From: Acidimicrobiales bacterium
GTDB lineage: Bacteria; Actinomycetota; Acidimicrobiia; Acidimicrobiales; Poriferisodaliceae
DNA: 7,215 nucleotides
Direction: 5' to 3'
NCBI GenBank assembly: GCA_020631315.1
Contig: JAHDHM010000183.1
Location: 1-7,215, forward strand
Made by a program: the position numbers and the translations under genes. Below are positions 968-7,215 of the stretch, piece by piece. How positions within the stretch are numbered: the first letter of the stretch is position 1; the number at the start of each line of letters is the position of its first letter. The notes under the pieces were generated by a model that was not told where the DNA came from, ran no database searches, and saw nothing but the letters and a program-made list of their open reading frames with translations.

Positions 968-3900
968 GTGACCGACTCCCCTGCACACCTGGGTCCGAAC
1001 TCCTGGCTCGCCGACGAGATGTACGAGACCTACCGGGCCAATCCCGCAGCCGTCTCGGCCGAATGGCGAGCCTTCTTCGAGTCGGGAGGTGAGCAGCTCG
1101 GTACCGCCGACGAGGCACCGGCCCTCAACGCGCCCGTCAACGCGCCCGCGAACGGCGCTGGTTCCACTGGCGCTGGGTCCAACGTCACCGCGTGGCCGTC
1201 GCCACTTGGCAACGGCTCGAACGGCGCTGCTCCGCCACCGGTTCAATCGCCTGCTGCACCGGCGCCCGCCGCTCCTGGTCCGGCGCCCGCACCTGCAGCT
1301 CCGGCAGCTGCCGCTCCGGCGCCCGCACCTGCCGCCCCCGCACCTGCCGCCCCCGCACCTGCCGCGCCGGCCGAGGAGCCGGGTGAGGTGATCCGCGGCG
1401 TCGGTGCCCGGATCGTCGAGAACATGGAGGCCTCGCTCGAGGTCCCGACCGCCACCTCCTATCGACAGGTGCCGGCGAAGCTGCTCGAGGTCAACCGCAA
1501 GATCATCAACGGCCACCTCGGCCGGACCGGCCAGGGCAAGCTCTCGTTCACCCATCTCATCGCGTACGCCTTGGTCGAGGCGCTGAAGGACGCGCCGTCC
1601 ATGACCACCACGTACGCGGCGGGCGAGGACGGCAAGCCGCGGCTCATCCGCCACGACGGCGTCGGCCTGGGTCTGGCGGTCGATGTCGAGAAGCGCGACG
1701 GCTCGCGCACGCTGATGGTCCCGTGCGTCAAGAACGCCGACTCGATGAACTTCCGCGAGTTCGTCGACGTCTACGACGACCTCATCTCCCGGACCCTCGG
1801 CGGCAAGATCACCCCGGACGACTTCGCCGGGACCACCATCTCGCTCACGAACGTCGGCGGCATCGGCACCCTCCAGTCGGTGCCGCGGTTGATGCCGGGC
1901 CAGGCGGCCATCATCGGCGTCGGCGCCATCGACTACCCCGCCGAGTTCAGCGGCAGCGATCCGTCGACCCTCGCCGAGATCGGTGTCTCGAAGGTCATCA
2001 CGATCTCGAACACCTACGACCACCGCATCATCCAGGGTGCCGAGTCGGGTCGTTTCCTGCGCCGTCTGCATCAGCTGCTGCTCGGCGAGGATGAGTTCTA
2101 CGAGCGGATCTTCGCCGACCTCCACATCCCGTACTCGACGGTCAAGTGGCGCCAGGACGTCAACAAGCACCGCGGTGACGCCACGCTGCTGCAGAAGCAG
2201 ATGCAGGTCCGCAAGCTGATCCAGATGTATCGAGTGCGCGGTCACCTCATCGCCGACCTCGACCCGCTCGGCCTGCAGGACCGGTCGATGCCCGACGAGC
2301 TCGATCCTGCGGCGTACGGTCTCACCATCTGGGACCTCGACCGTGAGTTCCTCACCGACGACCTCGAGGGGCCGGACTGGATGGCGCTCGGCGACATCCT
2401 CGGCGTGCTGCGTGACGCCTACAGCCGCACGATCGGCATCGAGTACATGCACATCCAGGACGCCGACGAGAAGGCCTGGATCCAGTCGCGTGTCGAGAAG
2501 AAGAAGGCACCGTTCGGCGAGAACGACCAGCGCCACGTGCTGTTCCGCCTGAGCCAGGCCGAGGCGTTCGAGCACTTCCTCGGCAAGCGCTACGTCGGTC
2601 ACAAGCGGTTCGGCATCGAAGGCGCGGAGGCGGCCATCCCGCTCATCGACGCCGTGCTCGAATCCGCGGCCGACGCCGGCCAGGCACATTGCGTCGTCGG
2701 CATGGCGCATCGCGGTCGCCTCAACGTGCTCGCCAACATCATGGGCCAGTCGTACGAGGAGATGTTCCGGCAGTTCGAGGGGTACATCAGTCCCGATGCC
2801 GTGCAGGGCACCGGCGACGTCAAGTACCACCTCGGTGCCGAGACGGTGTTCACCTCGCGCAGCGGCGCATCGATGCCGGTGACCTTGGCACCGAACCCGT
2901 CGCACCTCGAAGCCGTCGATCCCGTCGTCATCGGCATGGTCCGGGCGCTCCAGGACGAAACCGAACCACAGGGCTCGTTCCCGGTGCTGCCGCTGCTCAT
3001 CCACGGCGACGCCGCGTTCGCCGGTCAAGGAGTGGTGGCCGAGACACTCAACACGTCCCGCATCCCCGGTTTCCGCGTCGGCGGCACGGTGCACATCGTC
3101 ATCAACAACCAGGTCGGGTACACCACGTCGCCGGAGCAGTCCCGCTCCGGCCAGTACGCCACCGAGGTGGCGAAGATGGTGCAGGCGCCGATCTTCCACG
3201 TGAACGGCGATGATCCAGAGGCAGTCGTGCGGGCCGCTCGCTGGGCCTTCGACTACCGCCAGGCGTTCCACAAGGACGTCGTGATCGACATGATCTGCTA
3301 CCGCCGCCAGGGGCACAACGAGGGCGACGAGCCGTCGTACACCCAGCCGGTCATGTATCGCCACATCGAGGAACACCCGGGCGTGCGTGCCCGTTATGTG
3401 GCGAACCTCGTTCGTCGTGGCGACATCACCGAGGAACAGGCCCAGGCCGAGTACGCGAACTTCGAGGCGTGGATGCAGAGCATCCTCGACGAGACCCGTG
3501 CGTCGGCACCGACCGCGGTGACCCGAGCTGCAGCGCCGGTGAAGTTCAGCGAGGTGCCCTCCGTCATGGAGACGGGCGTTGAGCGTGCGGTGCTCGACCG
3601 CGTGCACGCTCGTCTCTACGACTATCCCGAGGACTTCACGCCGCATCCGAAGCTGGCTCGCCAGTTCGAGACGCGTCGCAAGATGTACGACGAGGGTGGC
3701 GAGGTCGACTGGGGCCTGGCGGAGACGCTCGCCTACGGCAGCCTCATGCTCGAGGGCGTCGCGATCCGGATCTCGGGCCAGGACACGCGACGTGGCACGT
3801 TCGCCCACCGCCATGCGGTCATGGTCGACCACAACGACGAGCACGAGTTCAAGCCGCTGAGTGATCTCGACCCCGACCAGGGCACGTTCTGGATCTACGA

Positions 3901-4732
3901 CTCGATGTTGTCCGAGTACGCCGGCCTCGGCTTCGAGTACGGCTACTCGTTGGTGAACCGCGACGCCCTCGTGGCATGGGAGGCCCAGTTCGGCGACTTC
4001 GTCAACGGCGCCCAGATCATCATCGACCAGTACCTCGCGGCTGCCTACGACAAGTGGCAGCAAAAGAGCGGTCTGGTGATGCTCCTGCCTCACGGCTACG
4101 AGGGCCAGGGTCCCGAGCACAGCTCGGCACGCCTGGAGCGGTTCCTGACGTTGTGCGCCGAGGGCAACATGACGGTCGCCAACGCCACGACGTCGGCGCA
4201 GTTCTTCCATCTGCTGCGCCAGCAGGTGGCCAGGGGCAACCAGCGTCCGCTCGTCGTGTTCACGCCCAAGTCGCTGCTGCGTGCCAAGTCGGCGCGTTCA
4301 CCGATCAGTGACCTGGTGTCGGGAGGATGGCATCCCGTGCTCGACGACACCGTCGCCGACCCTGCGTCGGTCCGCCGAGTGATCCTGTGCAGCGGCAAGG
4401 TCGGTTACGACGCCATGGCCCATCGCGACGCCACCGGAGCACCGATTGCGGTCGTGCGGGTCGAGCAGCTCTATCCGTGGCCCGCCGAGATGATCGAGGA
4501 GATACTCGGTCGCTACTCCAACGCCGAGTCGATCGTCTGGCTCCAGGAGGAACCGGCGAACATGGGCGGTTGGTCGTTCGTGCGCGGCAAGTGGGCCGAG
4601 CGTCATCCGTCGCGTCCACCGCTGTCGCTCGTCGGTCGACCGGAGTCGGGCAGCCCCGCGTGTGGCTCGCTCGGGGTCCACCAGCAAGAGTTCGAGCAGC
4701 TGATGAGCGAGACGATCAGCGGGCTCGCGTGA
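968..4732 (+). CDS. kgd: Multifunctional 2-oxoglutarate dehydrogenase, fused E2-type succinyltransferase and E1 component (Kgd/OdhA type)
   Basis: This TCA-cycle enzyme decarboxylates 2-oxoglutarate with thiamine diphosphate (ThDP) and passes the succinyl group toward CoA. The protein has 1254 residues, near the size of mycobacterial Kgd. Residues 1-39 (LGPNSWLADEMYETY...WRAFF) are the E1 N-terminal helix region. Residues about 85-139 are a Pro-Ala linker. Residues about 140-380 are an E2 catalytic domain, with the active-site region TYDHRIIQGAESG and His352. The E1 part runs from about 395 to the end: MAHRGRLNVLANIMGQ around His581, the ThDP/Mg motif from Gly680-Asp681 (GDAAFAGQG) to Asn713-Asn714, LLPHGYEGQGPEHSSAR with His1042 and His1051, and the C-terminal EEPANMGGWSFVR. 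There is no lipoyl domain, as in this family, where the lipoyl group is supplied by the E2 of the pyruvate dehydrogenase complex. The GTG start follows a -10-like box directly. In relatives activity is inhibited by the FHA protein GarA/OdhI; that partner is not in the window. Confidence 0.97.
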   Translation: MTDSPAHLGPNSWLADEMYETYRANPAAVSAEWRAFFESGGEQLGTADEAPALNAPVNAPANGAGSTGAGSNVTAWPSPLGNGSNGAAPPPVQSPAAPAPAAPGPAPAPAAPAAAAPAPAPAAPAPAAPAPAAPAEEPGEVIRGVGARIVENMEASLEVPTATSYRQVPAKLLEVNRKIINGHLGRTGQGKLSFTHLIAYALVEALKDAPSMTTTYAAGEDGKPRLIRHDGVGLGLAVDVEKRDGSRTLMVPCVKNADSMNFREFVDVYDDLISRTLGGKITPDDFAGTTISLTNVGGIGTLQSVPRLMPGQAAIIGVGAIDYPAEFSGSDPSTLAEIGVSKVITISNTYDHRIIQGAESGRFLRRLHQLLLGEDEFYERIFADLHIPYSTVKWRQDVNKHRGDATLLQKQMQVRKLIQMYRVRGHLIADLDPLGLQDRSMPDELDPAAYGLTIWDLDREFLTDDLEGPDWMALGDILGVLRDAYSRTIGIEYMHIQDADEKAWIQSRVEKKKAPFGENDQRHVLFRLSQAEAFEHFLGKRYVGHKRFGIEGAEAAIPLIDAVLESAADAGQAHCVVGMAHRGRLNVLANIMGQSYEEMFRQFEGYISPDAVQGTGDVKYHLGAETVFTSRSGASMPVTLAPNPSHLEAVDPVVIGMVRALQDETEPQGSFPVLPLLIHGDAAFAGQGVVAETLNTSRIPGFRVGGTVHIVINNQVGYTTSPEQSRSGQYATEVAKMVQAPIFHVNGDDPEAVVRAARWAFDYRQAFHKDVVIDMICYRRQGHNEGDEPSYTQPVMYRHIEEHPGVRARYVANLVRRGDITEEQAQAEYANFEAWMQSILDETRASAPTAVTRAAAPVKFSEVPSVMETGVERAVLDRVHARLYDYPEDFTPHPKLARQFETRRKMYDEGGEVDWGLAETLAYGSLMLEGVAIRISGQDTRRGTFAHRHAVMVDHNDEHEFKPLSDLDPDQGTFWIYDSMLSEYAGLGFEYGYSLVNRDALVAWEAQFGDFVNGAQIIIDQYLAAAYDKWQQKSGLVMLLPHGYEGQGPEHSSARLERFLTLCAEGNMTVANATTSAQFFHLLRQQVARGNQRPLVVFTPKSLLRAKSARSPISDLVSGGWHPVLDDTVADPASVRRVILCSGKVGYDAMAHRDATGAPIAVVRVEQLYPWPAEMIEEILGRYSNAESIVWLQEEPANMGGWSFVRGKWAERHPSRPPLSLVGRPESGSPACGSLGVHQQEFEQLMSETISGLA
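1322..1366 (+). repeat. Three 15-bp tandem repeats encoding PAPAA in the kgd linker
   Basis: The unit CCCGCACCTGCCGCC occurs at 1322-1336 and 1337-1351, and with one final change at 1352-1366. It is in frame and encodes PAPAA (residues 119-133), within a longer Ala-Pro stretch (about residues 92-136). Such linkers are flexible tethers between domains in 2-oxoacid dehydrogenases. The near-identical DNA copies suggest recent slippage expansion. Confidence 0.85.
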
Positions 4733-4821: not shown

Positions 4822-5469
4822 TCAGCCCATCTGCACGCCCGTCACCTCGGCGAGCTCGCCGAGCGCGACGTCGGGGTCCACGACCTTGATGGCGTGCATG
4901 CCGAGCAGATGTGCGGCCTTGCAGTTGATGCCGAGGTCGTCGAGGTAGACGGCATCGGACGGCGCAACCTCCATCGCCTCGCAGGCGAGTTCGTAGATGC
5001 GAGGGTCCGGTTTGCGCACGCCGACGACCGACGACTCGATGACCACCTCGAATCGGTCCATCACGGCAGCGATCTCGGCGGCGCGTGAGCCGTCTCGTGC
5101 CATGCCGGCCCCTTCACCGGCTCGGACGTTGTTCGTGATGCACCCGATGCGCACACCCGCTGTGGTGAGGCGGTCGAGCGCGTCGATCATCTTCGGACGC
5201 AGATCGCCGCTCAGGCACGCCAACACACGGGCGCCGTCGACCTCGAGGCCGAGTGCCGTTCCCTCGGCGCCGAAGCGTTCCACGAAACCGTCGACGTCGA
5301 TCTCGGATCGTTCGAACTGCGCCCACGCGTTCGTGTCCGGGTTGGTCGAGTTGATCCGACGCACGGTGTCGGCCGGCAGGCCCGCTTCGGCCTCGTAGCG
5401 GGCGAAGGCCTCGAAGGGACTCGTGGTGATCACGCCACCGAAGTCGAACAGGACGGTCGTTCTGGTCAC
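4822..5469 (-). CDS. HAD-superfamily (subfamily IA-like) hydrolase, putative phosphatase
   Basis: HAD enzymes use an aspartate nucleophile to hydrolyse phosphate esters or related bonds; the substrate here is unknown. With the GTG at 5469 the protein has 215 residues, a normal size. The motifs occur in order: motif I FDFGGVITTSP with Asp9; a helical cap at about residues 20-90; motif II ITNN with Thr112; motif III KPDPRIY with Lys153; motif IV YLDDLGINCKAA with Asp177 and Asp178. In motif I the usual second Asp (DxD, the general acid/base) is Gly11. The same DxGGV form is known in HAD domains related to the N-terminal domain of soluble epoxide hydrolase, so this need not mean inactivity. The GTG start fits the family N-terminus and lies eight bases after a TANNNT box. 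An upstream ATG at 5562 would add 31 Pro/Arg-rich residues and run over the neighbouring start, so it was not used. The gene is convergent with kgd. Confidence 0.88.
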   Translation of the reverse strand: MTRTTVLFDFGGVITTSPFEAFARYEAEAGLPADTVRRINSTNPDTNAWAQFERSEIDVDGFVERFGAEGTALGLEVDGARVLACLSGDLRPKMIDALDRLTTAGVRIGCITNNVRAGEGAGMARDGSRAAEIAAVMDRFEVVIESSVVGVRKPDPRIYELACEAMEVAPSDAVYLDDLGINCKAAHLLGMHAIKVVDPDVALGELAEVTGVQMG

Positions 5470-5477
5470 GTCGGGTG

Positions 5478-5483
5478 ACCGTA
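5478..5483 (-). promoter_or_regulatory. Candidate -10 box for the HAD gene (TACGGT), leaderless type
   Basis: On the minus strand TACGGT ends eight bases before the GTG at 5469, so transcription would start at or within a base or two of the start codon. No Shine-Dalgarno sequence is present. The spacing resembles that at kgd and xthA. Confidence 0.45.
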
Positions 5484-5487
5484 TCGT
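5482..5487 (+). promoter_or_regulatory. Candidate -10 box for the NYN/S1 gene (TATCGT), overlapping the opposite box
   Basis: TATCGT on the plus strand shares two bases with the minus-strand TACGGT. Transcription from it would start near 5494 and give a leader of about 67 nt. That leader contains a small hairpin, CCCCG (5520-5524) with CGGGG (5528-5532). A second possible start signal closer to the gene (TTCACT, 5545-5550) does not fit TANNNT. Confidence 0.3.
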
Positions 5488-5560
5488 CCCGGCGGATCCG
5501 AGTCCCCAACGCCATGGGTCCCCGCTGCGGGGAGTGTCGGGTGGTTCACTGTGCGGAGCC

Positions 5561-6943
5561 ATGATCTCTCATCTCGTCGTCGACGGCTCCAACATCGCCA
5601 CAGAGGGTCGGTCCCTTCCATCGCTCGCGCAGCTCGAGCAGGCCGTCGCCGACCTCTCCGCCGACCGCCACATCGAGAACATCATCGTCATCGTCGATGC
5701 GACGTTCCCGAACCGGATCGAGAAGTCCGAATCGGACCGGTACGAGGAGCTGCTCGCCGACGGTTGGCTGCTGACGCCACCGGCCGGAGCGATCGGGCGT
5801 GGCGATGCGTTCATCCTGCAGGTGGCCGACCGCGTCGACGCCGTCATCTTGTCCAACGACTCGTTCCAGGAGTTCCACGGCTCAACCCCGTGGCTGTTCG
5901 ACGAAGGTCGCCTGGTCGGTGGCAAGCCCGTGCCCGCGGTCGGCTGGGTGTTCGTCGACCGTTCCCCGGTGCGTGGACCCACCAGTCGTCGTGCGGTACG
6001 CGATGCCAAGAAGGCTGCCGATGGAGGTGACGCGCCACAGCCACGCCGAACCCGTCGGGCGACTGCGACCGAACAGCCCGCCGCCACGGCGCCCGCCGCT
6101 CCGACACGTCGCCGTCGTCGGTCGGTCGCGTCGGCCGAGCCGACTCCTGAACCCTCCGCCGACGCCACGACGAGCACCCCCGAACAGGCGGCCACCCCGA
6201 CGGTGCGGAAGCGCACTCGCCGGCCAGCGCAGGAAGCGCCGACCGAACCGGTGTCGCCTGCCGCGGTCACCGACGAAGCGGCCGGCGCCGAGGACATCGA
6301 TGCCGCAGCAGAGTCGAGCTCGGGTGCCCGACGCCGTCGCCGCCGAGGGGGGAGCACGAAGCCGATGATGAACGAGCCGGCGCCCTTCGTGGCGTTCGTC
6401 GCGGAGAACCTCCCGGGCTCGATCGTCACCGCCACCATCACGTCGTTCACCTCCCACGGCGCCTACGCGTCGGTCGGGGAAGTGACCTGCTACGTGCCGA
6501 ACCGATTGCTCGGCGATCCGCCGCCGCGATCGGCCAAGCAGGTCGTGAAGATCGGCGAAGACGTTCAACTCGAAGTCGAATCGGTCGACTCGACTTCGCG
6601 AGGAATCGACCTCGCTCTACCAGGTCTCGCGGGTCAGTCCCCGAGCAACACGACAGCTACCGGGCGCGATGCCCGCGTCACGGAGGTGACAGCCGACATG
6701 GCAACCAAGAAGAAGGCCCCGGCCAAGAAGAAGGCTCCGGCCAAGAAGGCTGCTCCGGCGAAGAAGGCTCCGGCGAAGAAGGCTGCTCCGGCGAAGAAGG
6801 CTCCGGCGAAGAAGGCTCCGGCGAAGAAGGCTGCTCCGGCGAAGAAGGCCCCCGCCAAGAAGGCTCCGGCGAAGAAGGCTGCTCCGGCCAAGAAGGCTCC
6901 GGCGAAGAAGGCCCCTGCCAAGAAGGCTGCCGCTCGTCGCTGA
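5561..6943 (+). CDS. Regnase-1-like (Zc3h12a-like) NYN ribonuclease with Arg-rich linker, S1-like domain and histone H1-like KKAPA tail
   Basis: The 460-residue product is predicted to bind and cleave RNA in the cytoplasm; its targets are unknown. Residues 4-135 resemble the NYN/PIN-like nuclease of Regnase-1: VVDGSN (Asp8, Asn11), IIVIVDATF (Asp46), LLTPPAGAIGRGDAFIL (Asp82), VILSNDSFQEF (Asp100), then GWVFVDR. These acids are placed as expected for a metal-dependent RNase. Residues about 140-275 are low-complexity Pro/Ala/Glu with basic patches (RRTRR 162-166, RRRRR 183-187, RKRTRR 216-221, RRRRRR 257-262), likely disordered and nucleic-acid binding. Residues 286-355 (GSIVTATITSFTSHGAYASVG...) look like an S1-type RNA-binding fold. 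Residues 380-460 are a Lys-Ala-Pro tail like histone H1. I chose the ATG at 5561 because the nuclease fold begins right after it; the frame is open back to 5423, but that extension is unlike the family. GGAG at 5555-5558 is too close to the ATG for a strong ribosome-binding site. The gene diverges from the HAD gene. Confidence 0.85.
   Translation: MISHLVVDGSNIATEGRSLPSLAQLEQAVADLSADRHIENIIVIVDATFPNRIEKSESDRYEELLADGWLLTPPAGAIGRGDAFILQVADRVDAVILSNDSFQEFHGSTPWLFDEGRLVGGKPVPAVGWVFVDRSPVRGPTSRRAVRDAKKAADGGDAPQPRRTRRATATEQPAATAPAAPTRRRRRSVASAEPTPEPSADATTSTPEQAATPTVRKRTRRPAQEAPTEPVSPAAVTDEAAGAEDIDAAAESSSGARRRRRRGGSTKPMMNEPAPFVAFVAENLPGSIVTATITSFTSHGAYASVGEVTCYVPNRLLGDPPPRSAKQVVKIGEDVQLEVESVDSTSRGIDLALPGLAGQSPSNTTATGRDARVTEVTADMATKKKAPAKKKAPAKKAAPAKKAPAKKAAPAKKAPAKKAPAKKAAPAKKAPAKKAPAKKAAPAKKAPAKKAPAKKAAARR
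6682..6689 (+). promoter_or_regulatory. Strong internal Shine-Dalgarno sequence (GGAGGTGA) inside the NYN/S1 reading frame
   Basis: GGAGGTGA is fully complementary to the usual anti-Shine-Dalgarno end of 16S rRNA. It lies eight bases before an in-frame ATG at 6698 that opens the lysine-rich tail. It is the strongest ribosome-binding site in the window, stronger than that of the gene containing it. Confidence 0.6.
6698..6943 (+). CDS. Candidate nested gene: free histone H1-like KKAPA-repeat protein from an internal start
   Basis: Translation from the ATG at 6698 would give an 81-residue, very basic protein, MATKKKAPAKKK...KKAAARR, the same frame and stop as the tail of the upstream ORF. It contains only Lys, Ala, Pro, Arg, Thr and Met. 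Such proteins resemble the C-terminal domains of histone H1 and of actinobacterial HupB and would be expected to bind DNA or RNA through charge, without a folded domain. The evidence for a separate product is the strong Shine-Dalgarno sequence, a start codon exactly at the domain border, and a MATKKK opening typical of stand-alone proteins of this kind. Against it, the upstream frame stays open through the junction, so the sequence may be used only as a C-terminal tail. Both products may be made. Confidence 0.45.
   Translation: MATKKKAPAKKKAPAKKAAPAKKAPAKKAAPAKKAPAKKAPAKKAAPAKKAPAKKAPAKKAAPAKKAPAKKAPAKKAAARR
6707..6919 (+). repeat. KKAPA/KKAAPA tandem repeat with a 48-bp higher-order period
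   Basis: Thirteen in-frame units of 15 or 18 bp encode KKAPA, KKAAPA or KKKAPA. The last nine form three copies of a 16-residue block (KKAAPA-KKAPA-KKAPA) at 6776-6823, 6824-6871 and 6872-6919. They differ from each other only at synonymous sites such as GCG/GCC and CCG/CCC. The repeat ends in KKAAARR and the stop. All lysines use AAG. The near identity at DNA level points to expansion by slippage or recombination. Confidence 0.95.
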
Positions 6944-6997
6944 GCTCGACATCGAGCTTCCGGACACTGCCCGTCGTTGCGTGCGGCGGGCAGTGTC
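6943..6997 (+). terminator. Two successive hairpins after the NYN/S1 gene, probable terminator
   Basis: The main stem is perfect over 11 pairs: GACACTGCCCG (6963-6973) with CGGGCAGTGTC (6987-6997). It can extend inward by four more pairs, two of them G-T. Just upstream, AGCTCGA (6943-6949) and TCGAGCT (6952-6958) form a short palindrome that begins at the last base of the stop codon. No T-tract follows, which is common for terminators in GC-rich Actinobacteria. The location between two same-strand genes supports the call. Confidence 0.7.
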
Positions 6998-7014
6998 GCG
7001 TCCGGACCCGTCGA

Positions 7015-7020
7015 TAGGGT
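7015..7020 (+). promoter_or_regulatory. Candidate -10 box for xthA (TAGGGT), leaderless type
   Basis: TAGGGT fits TANNNT and ends six bases before the GTG at 7027, with no Shine-Dalgarno sequence between. It follows the hairpin directly, which suggests xthA has its own promoter. Confidence 0.5.
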
Positions 7021-7026
7021 GACCCG

Positions 7027-7215
7027 GTGCGCATCGCCACGTGGAACGTCAACTCCCTGAACGCTCGCATGGATCGAGTCGACGAGTGGCTTGCACTCGC
7101 TCGCCCCGACGTCGTCTGCATGCAGGAGACGAAGATGTCCGACGAGCAGTTCCCACACGACCACTTCTCGGAACTGGGCTATCAGTCGGCACACTCGGGC
7201 GAGGGCCGCTGGAAC
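7027..7215 (+). CDS. xthA: Exodeoxyribonuclease III (AP endonuclease family), N-terminal fragment
   Basis: ExoIII cuts DNA at abasic sites and removes 3' blocking groups in base-excision repair. The visible 63 residues begin MRIATWNVNSLNARMDRVDEWL and continue with RPDVVCMQETKMSDEQFP. Asn7 and the metal-binding Glu34 in QETK fall at the same positions as in E. coli ExoIII, which supports the GTG start at 7027. The Asp/Asn and His active-site residues of the C-terminal half lie beyond the window. The gene runs in the same direction as the NYN/S1 gene but is separated by a terminator-like hairpin and a promoter-like box. Confidence 0.93.
   Translation, partial: MRIATWNVNSLNARMDRVDEWLALARPDVVCMQETKMSDEQFPHDHFSELGYQSAHSGEGRWN

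Follow-up and report, generated by a model that had tools for sequence, protein, structure and literature searches.

The 7,215-nt stretch of DNA that we analyzed (hereafter, the window) is an Acidimicrobiia-like chromosome segment carrying a kgd-like gene, a HAD-like gene, a ribonuclease gene with a candidate second start site, and the beginning of a further gene that, judged by its first residues, we take to be exonuclease III-like (Table 1). By domain match, the ribonuclease gene product is an NYN / Zc3h12a-like RNase, its NYN domain scoring above the curated Pfam cut-off (34.9 bits vs 23) and its S1 domain having ribosomal protein S1 as the nearest solved sequences. The lysine-rich tail stays under the curated cut-offs of both HC2 (PF07382; 25 bits vs 40) and NF038053 (34.5 vs 80), and a search with the tail alone returned 23 matches—HU- and SWIB-domain proteins among them—none of which was usable. 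Its composition suggests that the tail may bind and compact DNA. Of 16 long loci, 14 carry a kgd-like gene, recognized by simple motifs, upstream in the same orientation; an exonuclease III-like motif follows on that strand in seven and stands elsewhere in four more. A terminator was looked for near the gene and not found. The minus-strand HAD ORF (first ATG at 5562) and the plus-strand NYN ORF (5561) would start from one common CATG; the real HAD start probably lies further in.

Table 1 Features of the window, with the energies of predicted pairing to the 16S 3′ end.
Feature	Position	Strand	Score or remark
kgd-like gene	968–4732		
HAD-like gene		−	
Full ORF, 460 aa: NYN (Zc3h12a-like) RNase, S1, linker, lysine-rich HC2-like tail	5561..6943	+	
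Translation start of the full-length protein (ATG 5561)	5541..5563	+	weak RBS, −2.6 kcal/mol
NYN / RNase_Zc3h12a (PF11977), residues 4–108	5570..5884	+	E 1.5e-8
S1 RNA-binding domain (PF00575), residues 286–352	6416..6616	+	E 1.8e-9
27-codon S1-to-tail linker holding the internal RBS	6617..6697	+	variable and in-frame open in relatives
Internal Shine-Dalgarno GGAGGTGA, 8 nt 5′ of the ATG	6682..6689	+	−13.8 kcal/mol; functional equivalents in relatives
Internal in-frame ATG, followed by GCA (Ala)	6698..6700	+	GTG/TTG in most relatives
Predicted free H1-like protein, 81 aa (MATKKKAPAKK...)	6698..6943	+	HC2-like (PF07382), sub-cut-off; 15-bp-period tandem array
Exonuclease III-like gene (presumed), beginning only	7027 on		

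An earlier note on this DNA had proposed that one frame could yield two proteins, pointing to a strong internal ribosome-binding site (RBS) eight bases before an in-frame ATG. The signal is indeed there: GGAGGTGA is followed by eight bases (6690–6697) and an ATG in frame with 5561, from which an 81-residue product would be read. The contrast drawn with a poor RBS at 5561 likewise held, with predicted 16S pairing of only −2.6 kcal/mol there versus −13.8 kcal/mol at 6698. The internal RBS is the strongest among the 17 in-frame start codons of the ORF—the best of the 15 others reaches −8.4 kcal/mol—and among 250 ATG/GTG/TTG triplets on the plus strand, one other (4337, in a different gene) reaches −11.0 kcal/mol and none is lower. 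Since GGAGGTGA occurs three times on that strand (1085, 6023, and 6682), the 8-mer alone is not decisive; what decides is its spacing to a start codon at the tail. The window thereby offers an in-frame start codon with its own RBS, as is asked of an in-frame intragenic gene (iTIS). The placement of the ATG precisely at the S1/tail junction stood in part: it does lie at the onset of the tail, but the S1 match ends at residue 352 (~6616), which leaves a 27-codon linker between the two. Around this internal start in the window, the RNA is predicted to fold only modestly more weakly than the ORF does on average (z 0.7).

To place this signal among relatives, we drew on both proteins and DNA. A protein search gave 4417 homologues from 7998 scored candidates, of which the best 120 were examined. 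At the junction, these show EEA-x-V/L-A, EEAPSM-AV, RRTTPV-AT, and similar sequences, and 64 of these 120 fit the pattern EE[AED]x-X-[ATS], with X being Val in 51, Leu in 12, Ala in one, and Ile in none, although Ile makes up 13% of V/L/I/M in residues 100–330. Inspected by eye, a good part of the other 56 had a Met slightly offset, and some had no clear site. The nearest protein relative of the window (P0001, 58%) has V rather than M near the tail at the protein level.

The DNA sources comprised 30 loci from genome contigs together with whole genomes, and collapsing copies with a common 40-residue stretch left 113 distinct NYN ORFs. A site was called by rule where a Shine-Dalgarno sequence (SD) with ΔG ≤ −6.5 kcal/mol preceded an in-frame start at the onset of a K/R-rich stretch. 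Thus sorted, 46 ORFs had a site, 26 a lysine tail without one, 35 lacked such a tail, and six lacked a recognized S1 domain. Four rule sites were removed by hand (L064, L084, L125, and L118, the last because it lies away from the beginning of the tail), so that a strong SD and an in-frame start directly before a lysine tail were retained in 42 of the 113 ORFs. The start codon is GTG in 32 of these, ATG in six, and TTG in four, and residue 2 is Ala in 39, Thr in two, and Ser in one; linkers span 24–85 codons. Tails are composed of 36% K, 36% A, and 12% P, and the complete ones (27 of 42) measure 65–206 aa with a median of 104. The longest (206 aa, L055) departs from the lysine-rich pattern partway, which makes a late frameshift likely. 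The SDs comprise GAGGAGGCANNN and close variants, AAGGAG (mostly 10 nt from GTG), and the window's own; in L120, ACAAGGAGAACCACACCC is followed by GTG and then GCAACC. They sit in differing registers over differing peptides (EEA, KEA, TRR/TRS, TEVTAD, QVREN), and since SD sequences and peptides vary alike, the conserved thing is initiation and not a peptide. The earlier note had held that orthologues with a fused tail lacking both GGAGGTGA and the ATG would speak against its proposal. Taken to the letter, this is partly what we found, with GGAGGTGA at none of the other 41 sites and ATG at five of them; the function is kept, through another SD with GTG, TTG, or ATG. In seven further ORFs (L007, L008, L014, L019, L020, L025, and L027), the C-terminal tail is missing and a K/A-rich segment with 13–22% Lys lies between NYN and S1; the lysine-rich part seems to have moved place among relatives.

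In a quick maximum-likelihood tree of NYN and S1 (107 rows, SH-aLRT), all 42 site ORFs fell into one 56-row group with a support of 97, which also holds L118, 12 tail-bearing rows without a site, and the frameshifted L110; the three other removed sites lie outside, and 18 rows of the group run off a contig end. The window is a lone branch on this tree (0.71 changes per column, no starred set). Over all 46 rule sites, including the four dropped, the site label changes 14 times on the tree versus 34.8 times when shuffled, and among the 42, start codon and SD type each change at least five times. The 12 tail-bearing rows without a site by rule mean that the site is not kept everywhere; in two of them (L070, L114), a weak site of about −5.9 kcal/mol is present. 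We searched one family (that of genome G001) completely: of its 33 genomes, 31 had a match at E ≤ 0.001, and not counting three with weak matches only (G019, G096, G100), 28 bear the gene. An SD and a start in frame with the RNase were present in 26 of these 28. Genome G004 has neither at the site, and G099 (copy L110) keeps the SD and GTG before the tail, but its gene is frameshifted in several places, which may reflect assembly error or decay. One locus, L006, deposited as Bifidobacterium breve, shows kgd-like, HAD-like, and NYN genes in the window's order together with the internal site; it is probably a mislabelled bin.

That evolution constrains an in-frame internal start is difficult to demonstrate, since its codons already serve a protein. 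Here, the homologous position shows three start codons, several SDs, and varied peptides, by which the two constraints can be told apart, making for a clean natural test case. A protein-only rule assigned the site residue in 46 rows of the 56-row group, ten being unassignable; rows in which it chose residues upstream of the evident site (L030, L056, L124) or a GTC (L070) were retained. The assigned residue was Val in 32 rows (GTG 31, GTC 1), Leu in seven (TTG 4; CTA, CTT, and CTC one each), and Met in seven, against same-ORF backgrounds of 38.5% GTG among 1321 Val and 11.6% TTG among Leu. The Ala that follows is encoded by GCA in 31 of 39 cases versus a background of 14.2%, and third-position GC content (GC3) drops to 0.11 at this second codon. 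In VAV peptides, the second Val is GTG in four of nine cases (GTC 3, GTA 2). After thinning to below 70% identity (27 rows), p was 3.7e-6 for Val, 8e-10 for GCA, and 0.13 for Leu; below 65% (13 rows), the corresponding values were 0.03, 6e-6, and 0.5, the Val and Leu tests being weak there. When codons were redrawn from each ORF's own synonymous codons (300 draws), an SD plus start arose in a mean of 11.2 and a maximum of 18 of the 46 rows; observed were 41. Predicted folding at the site is weaker than over the rest of the ORF in all 42 (mean −9.3 vs −14.6 kcal/mol). The internal site also outscores the main start in 41 of 41 ORFs, a comparison that is partly circular since the sites were picked by SD strength. 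As expected for an iTIS, the signal is conserved beyond protein demand.

A P[ST]EETVEAEI-type peptide is conserved after S1 in lineages without an internal start, e.g. L003, L062, L065, and L089. As a negative control, we took this motif in 26 ORFs outside the group, where GTG encodes 7 of 23 Val and Ile occurs in three ORFs. The control bears on the possibility that the internal signal arises as a side effect of high GAG usage and of a conserved peptide in which an acidic EE patch adjoins a hydrophobic residue and the tail, and that no internal initiation takes place. That 33 of the 42 sites have an SD of the EE/KE/QE type would fit, as would the frequent GAG GAG of the control motif itself (17 of 26). 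However, synonymous reshuffling fell far short of the observed count, GTG and GCA prevail at the site whereas the genuine EE-T-V motif outside the group shows no GTG bias, and other lineages reach an SD via different peptides. We rejected this reading on the codon bias, the reshuffling, and the control motif, and regard it as very unlikely. Were the fusion all that mattered, the site codons would drift like those of the control motif; conversely, if the separate proteins alone mattered, the variable linker would gain stops and frame changes, yet tail and RNase share one open frame in 55 of the 56 group rows, all but L110 with its multiple frameshifts. This bears equally on the other option of the earlier note, by which two genes were recently fused through loss of a stop codon and the RBS is a relic. 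Free H1-like genes occur in bacteria generally, which lends such an origin some plausibility; since the reading frame runs on unbroken from the RNase and the signal has persisted across deep divergence, a recent fusion fails. It is already contradicted by the sequences of the 56-row group, and we give it hardly any credence.

Two further readings accept a separately made tail. The main functional rival is an Rpn-like regulatory role, in which the free tail would mainly control the full-length nuclease by competing for nucleic acid or by binding, as RpnS acts on RpnL. As reported for Rpn (PMC10327210) and proposed here, a nuclease gene has a repetitive, length-variable C-terminus that is also translated from an in-frame internal start. 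In the gene studied here, fusion and predicted free form are retained together. Unlike Rpn, a PD-(D/E)XK nuclease, the enzyme here is of the NYN-S1 type; the Rpn nuclease N-terminal domain is absent, as Pfam gives only NYN (PF11977), S1, and a sub-threshold HC2 match. The internal product is here a lysine-rich H1-like tail, for which an inhibitory role would be hypothetical. Consisting nearly entirely of K, A, and P, this tail does not suggest a folded oligomerization domain; PADLOC models gave no match, and the kgd-like neighbor in most long loci points to a settled genomic position and not to a mobile island. We rate a regulatory role as unlikely, though not negligible. Still less probable is that the internal start lies on a separate internal transcript, which would make the free tail a transcription unit by itself: GC3 also dips at codons −15 to −9 (0.46–0.65), a possible place for a promoter, but no sigma-70-like site was found in 5400–7060 in a scan of one promoter type.

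Very probably, then, the locus is a gene within a gene, encoding an NYN-S1-H1 fusion and a free H1-like protein—the first proposal of the earlier note, for which comparative DNA, the 42 ORFs, and codons unexplained by the peptide provide strong support. The comparison supports both a conserved initiation signal and a conserved fusion. Weighing against this reading are the isolated branch of the window, the V in its nearest protein relative, the modest folding difference at its own site, the tail-bearing rows without a site, the weaker codon tests after thinning, and the low HC2 score of the tail. In the two-product model, ribosomes would start at 5561 to make the 460-residue NYN-S1 ribonuclease with its lysine-rich H1-like C-terminal tail, and would also bind the internal SD at 6682, initiating from ATG 6698 to make the free 81-residue H1-like protein, whose initiator Met is probably removed given Ala at position 2. 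SD strength and the weaker local folding suggest that the free form may be abundant, perhaps the more abundant of the two, as the earlier note supposed. Selection would act on both products, as the internal start persists despite changing codons and SDs while the linker frame stays open. By analogy with the mycobacterial HupB tail, the free tail may serve as a nucleic-acid-compacting, nucleoid-associated protein, and the fused tail may tether the RNase to the nucleoid or to RNA.

Streptomyces HupS carries an H1-like lysine-rich tail fused to HU. It offers a further actinobacterial comparison (PMC11229371) beside mycobacterial HupB, whose PAKK/KAAK tails of this type are reported to be needed for nucleoid binding (PMC5676037). 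The product studied here resembles HupB in its H1-like lysine-rich tail and its actinobacterial host; unlike in HupB and HupS, where the tail sits on HU, it is here on an RNase and presumably also free. In composition and repeat type, the free product is like HC2 and H1-like proteins (PF07382, NF038053), but it falls under both curated cut-offs and is not a separate gene. In-frame internal starts with a second product are established for Rpn (PMC10327210) and Cas11 (PMC11899642, PMC10327210). Cas11 is likewise small and is read from an in-frame start within cas8/cas10, the gene of a larger nucleic-acid-binding protein, whereas the product here is low-complexity and basic and has no PADLOC defense-system match. 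Among the literature matches listed (title and start of abstract), none reported an internal in-frame start yielding an H1-like protein. The product type—an H1-like protein from an internal start—thus looks new, while the kind of arrangement itself is known.

Among the 24 genomes searched, four had HU proteins with H1-like tails (L167, L170, L176, L178, L180); the internal site is absent from three of the four. By genome class, every HU found lacks such a tail in 14 of the 15 site-bearing genomes searched; only G033 departs from this, through its second HU (L178). In the nine other genomes, HU had a tail in three (G039, G105, G140) and no tail in five; G041 gave no HU match. The pattern is suggestive of a trade of tailed HU for an RNase-derived free H1-like protein, these genomes being too few to prove it. 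Tentatively, and as a less likely than not reading, one may go further and suppose that in this Acidimicrobiia branch the free H1-like chromatin protein is not encoded by a separate gene and comes only from the RNase-internal start, replacing the H1-like tail that HU carries in other actinobacteria. If true, one mRNA would fix the proportion between RNase bound to the nucleoid and free linker-histone-like protein. And if the internal product is real, an actinobacterial branch makes a linker-histone-like protein tied to an RNase, hidden by its annotation as a single fused gene.
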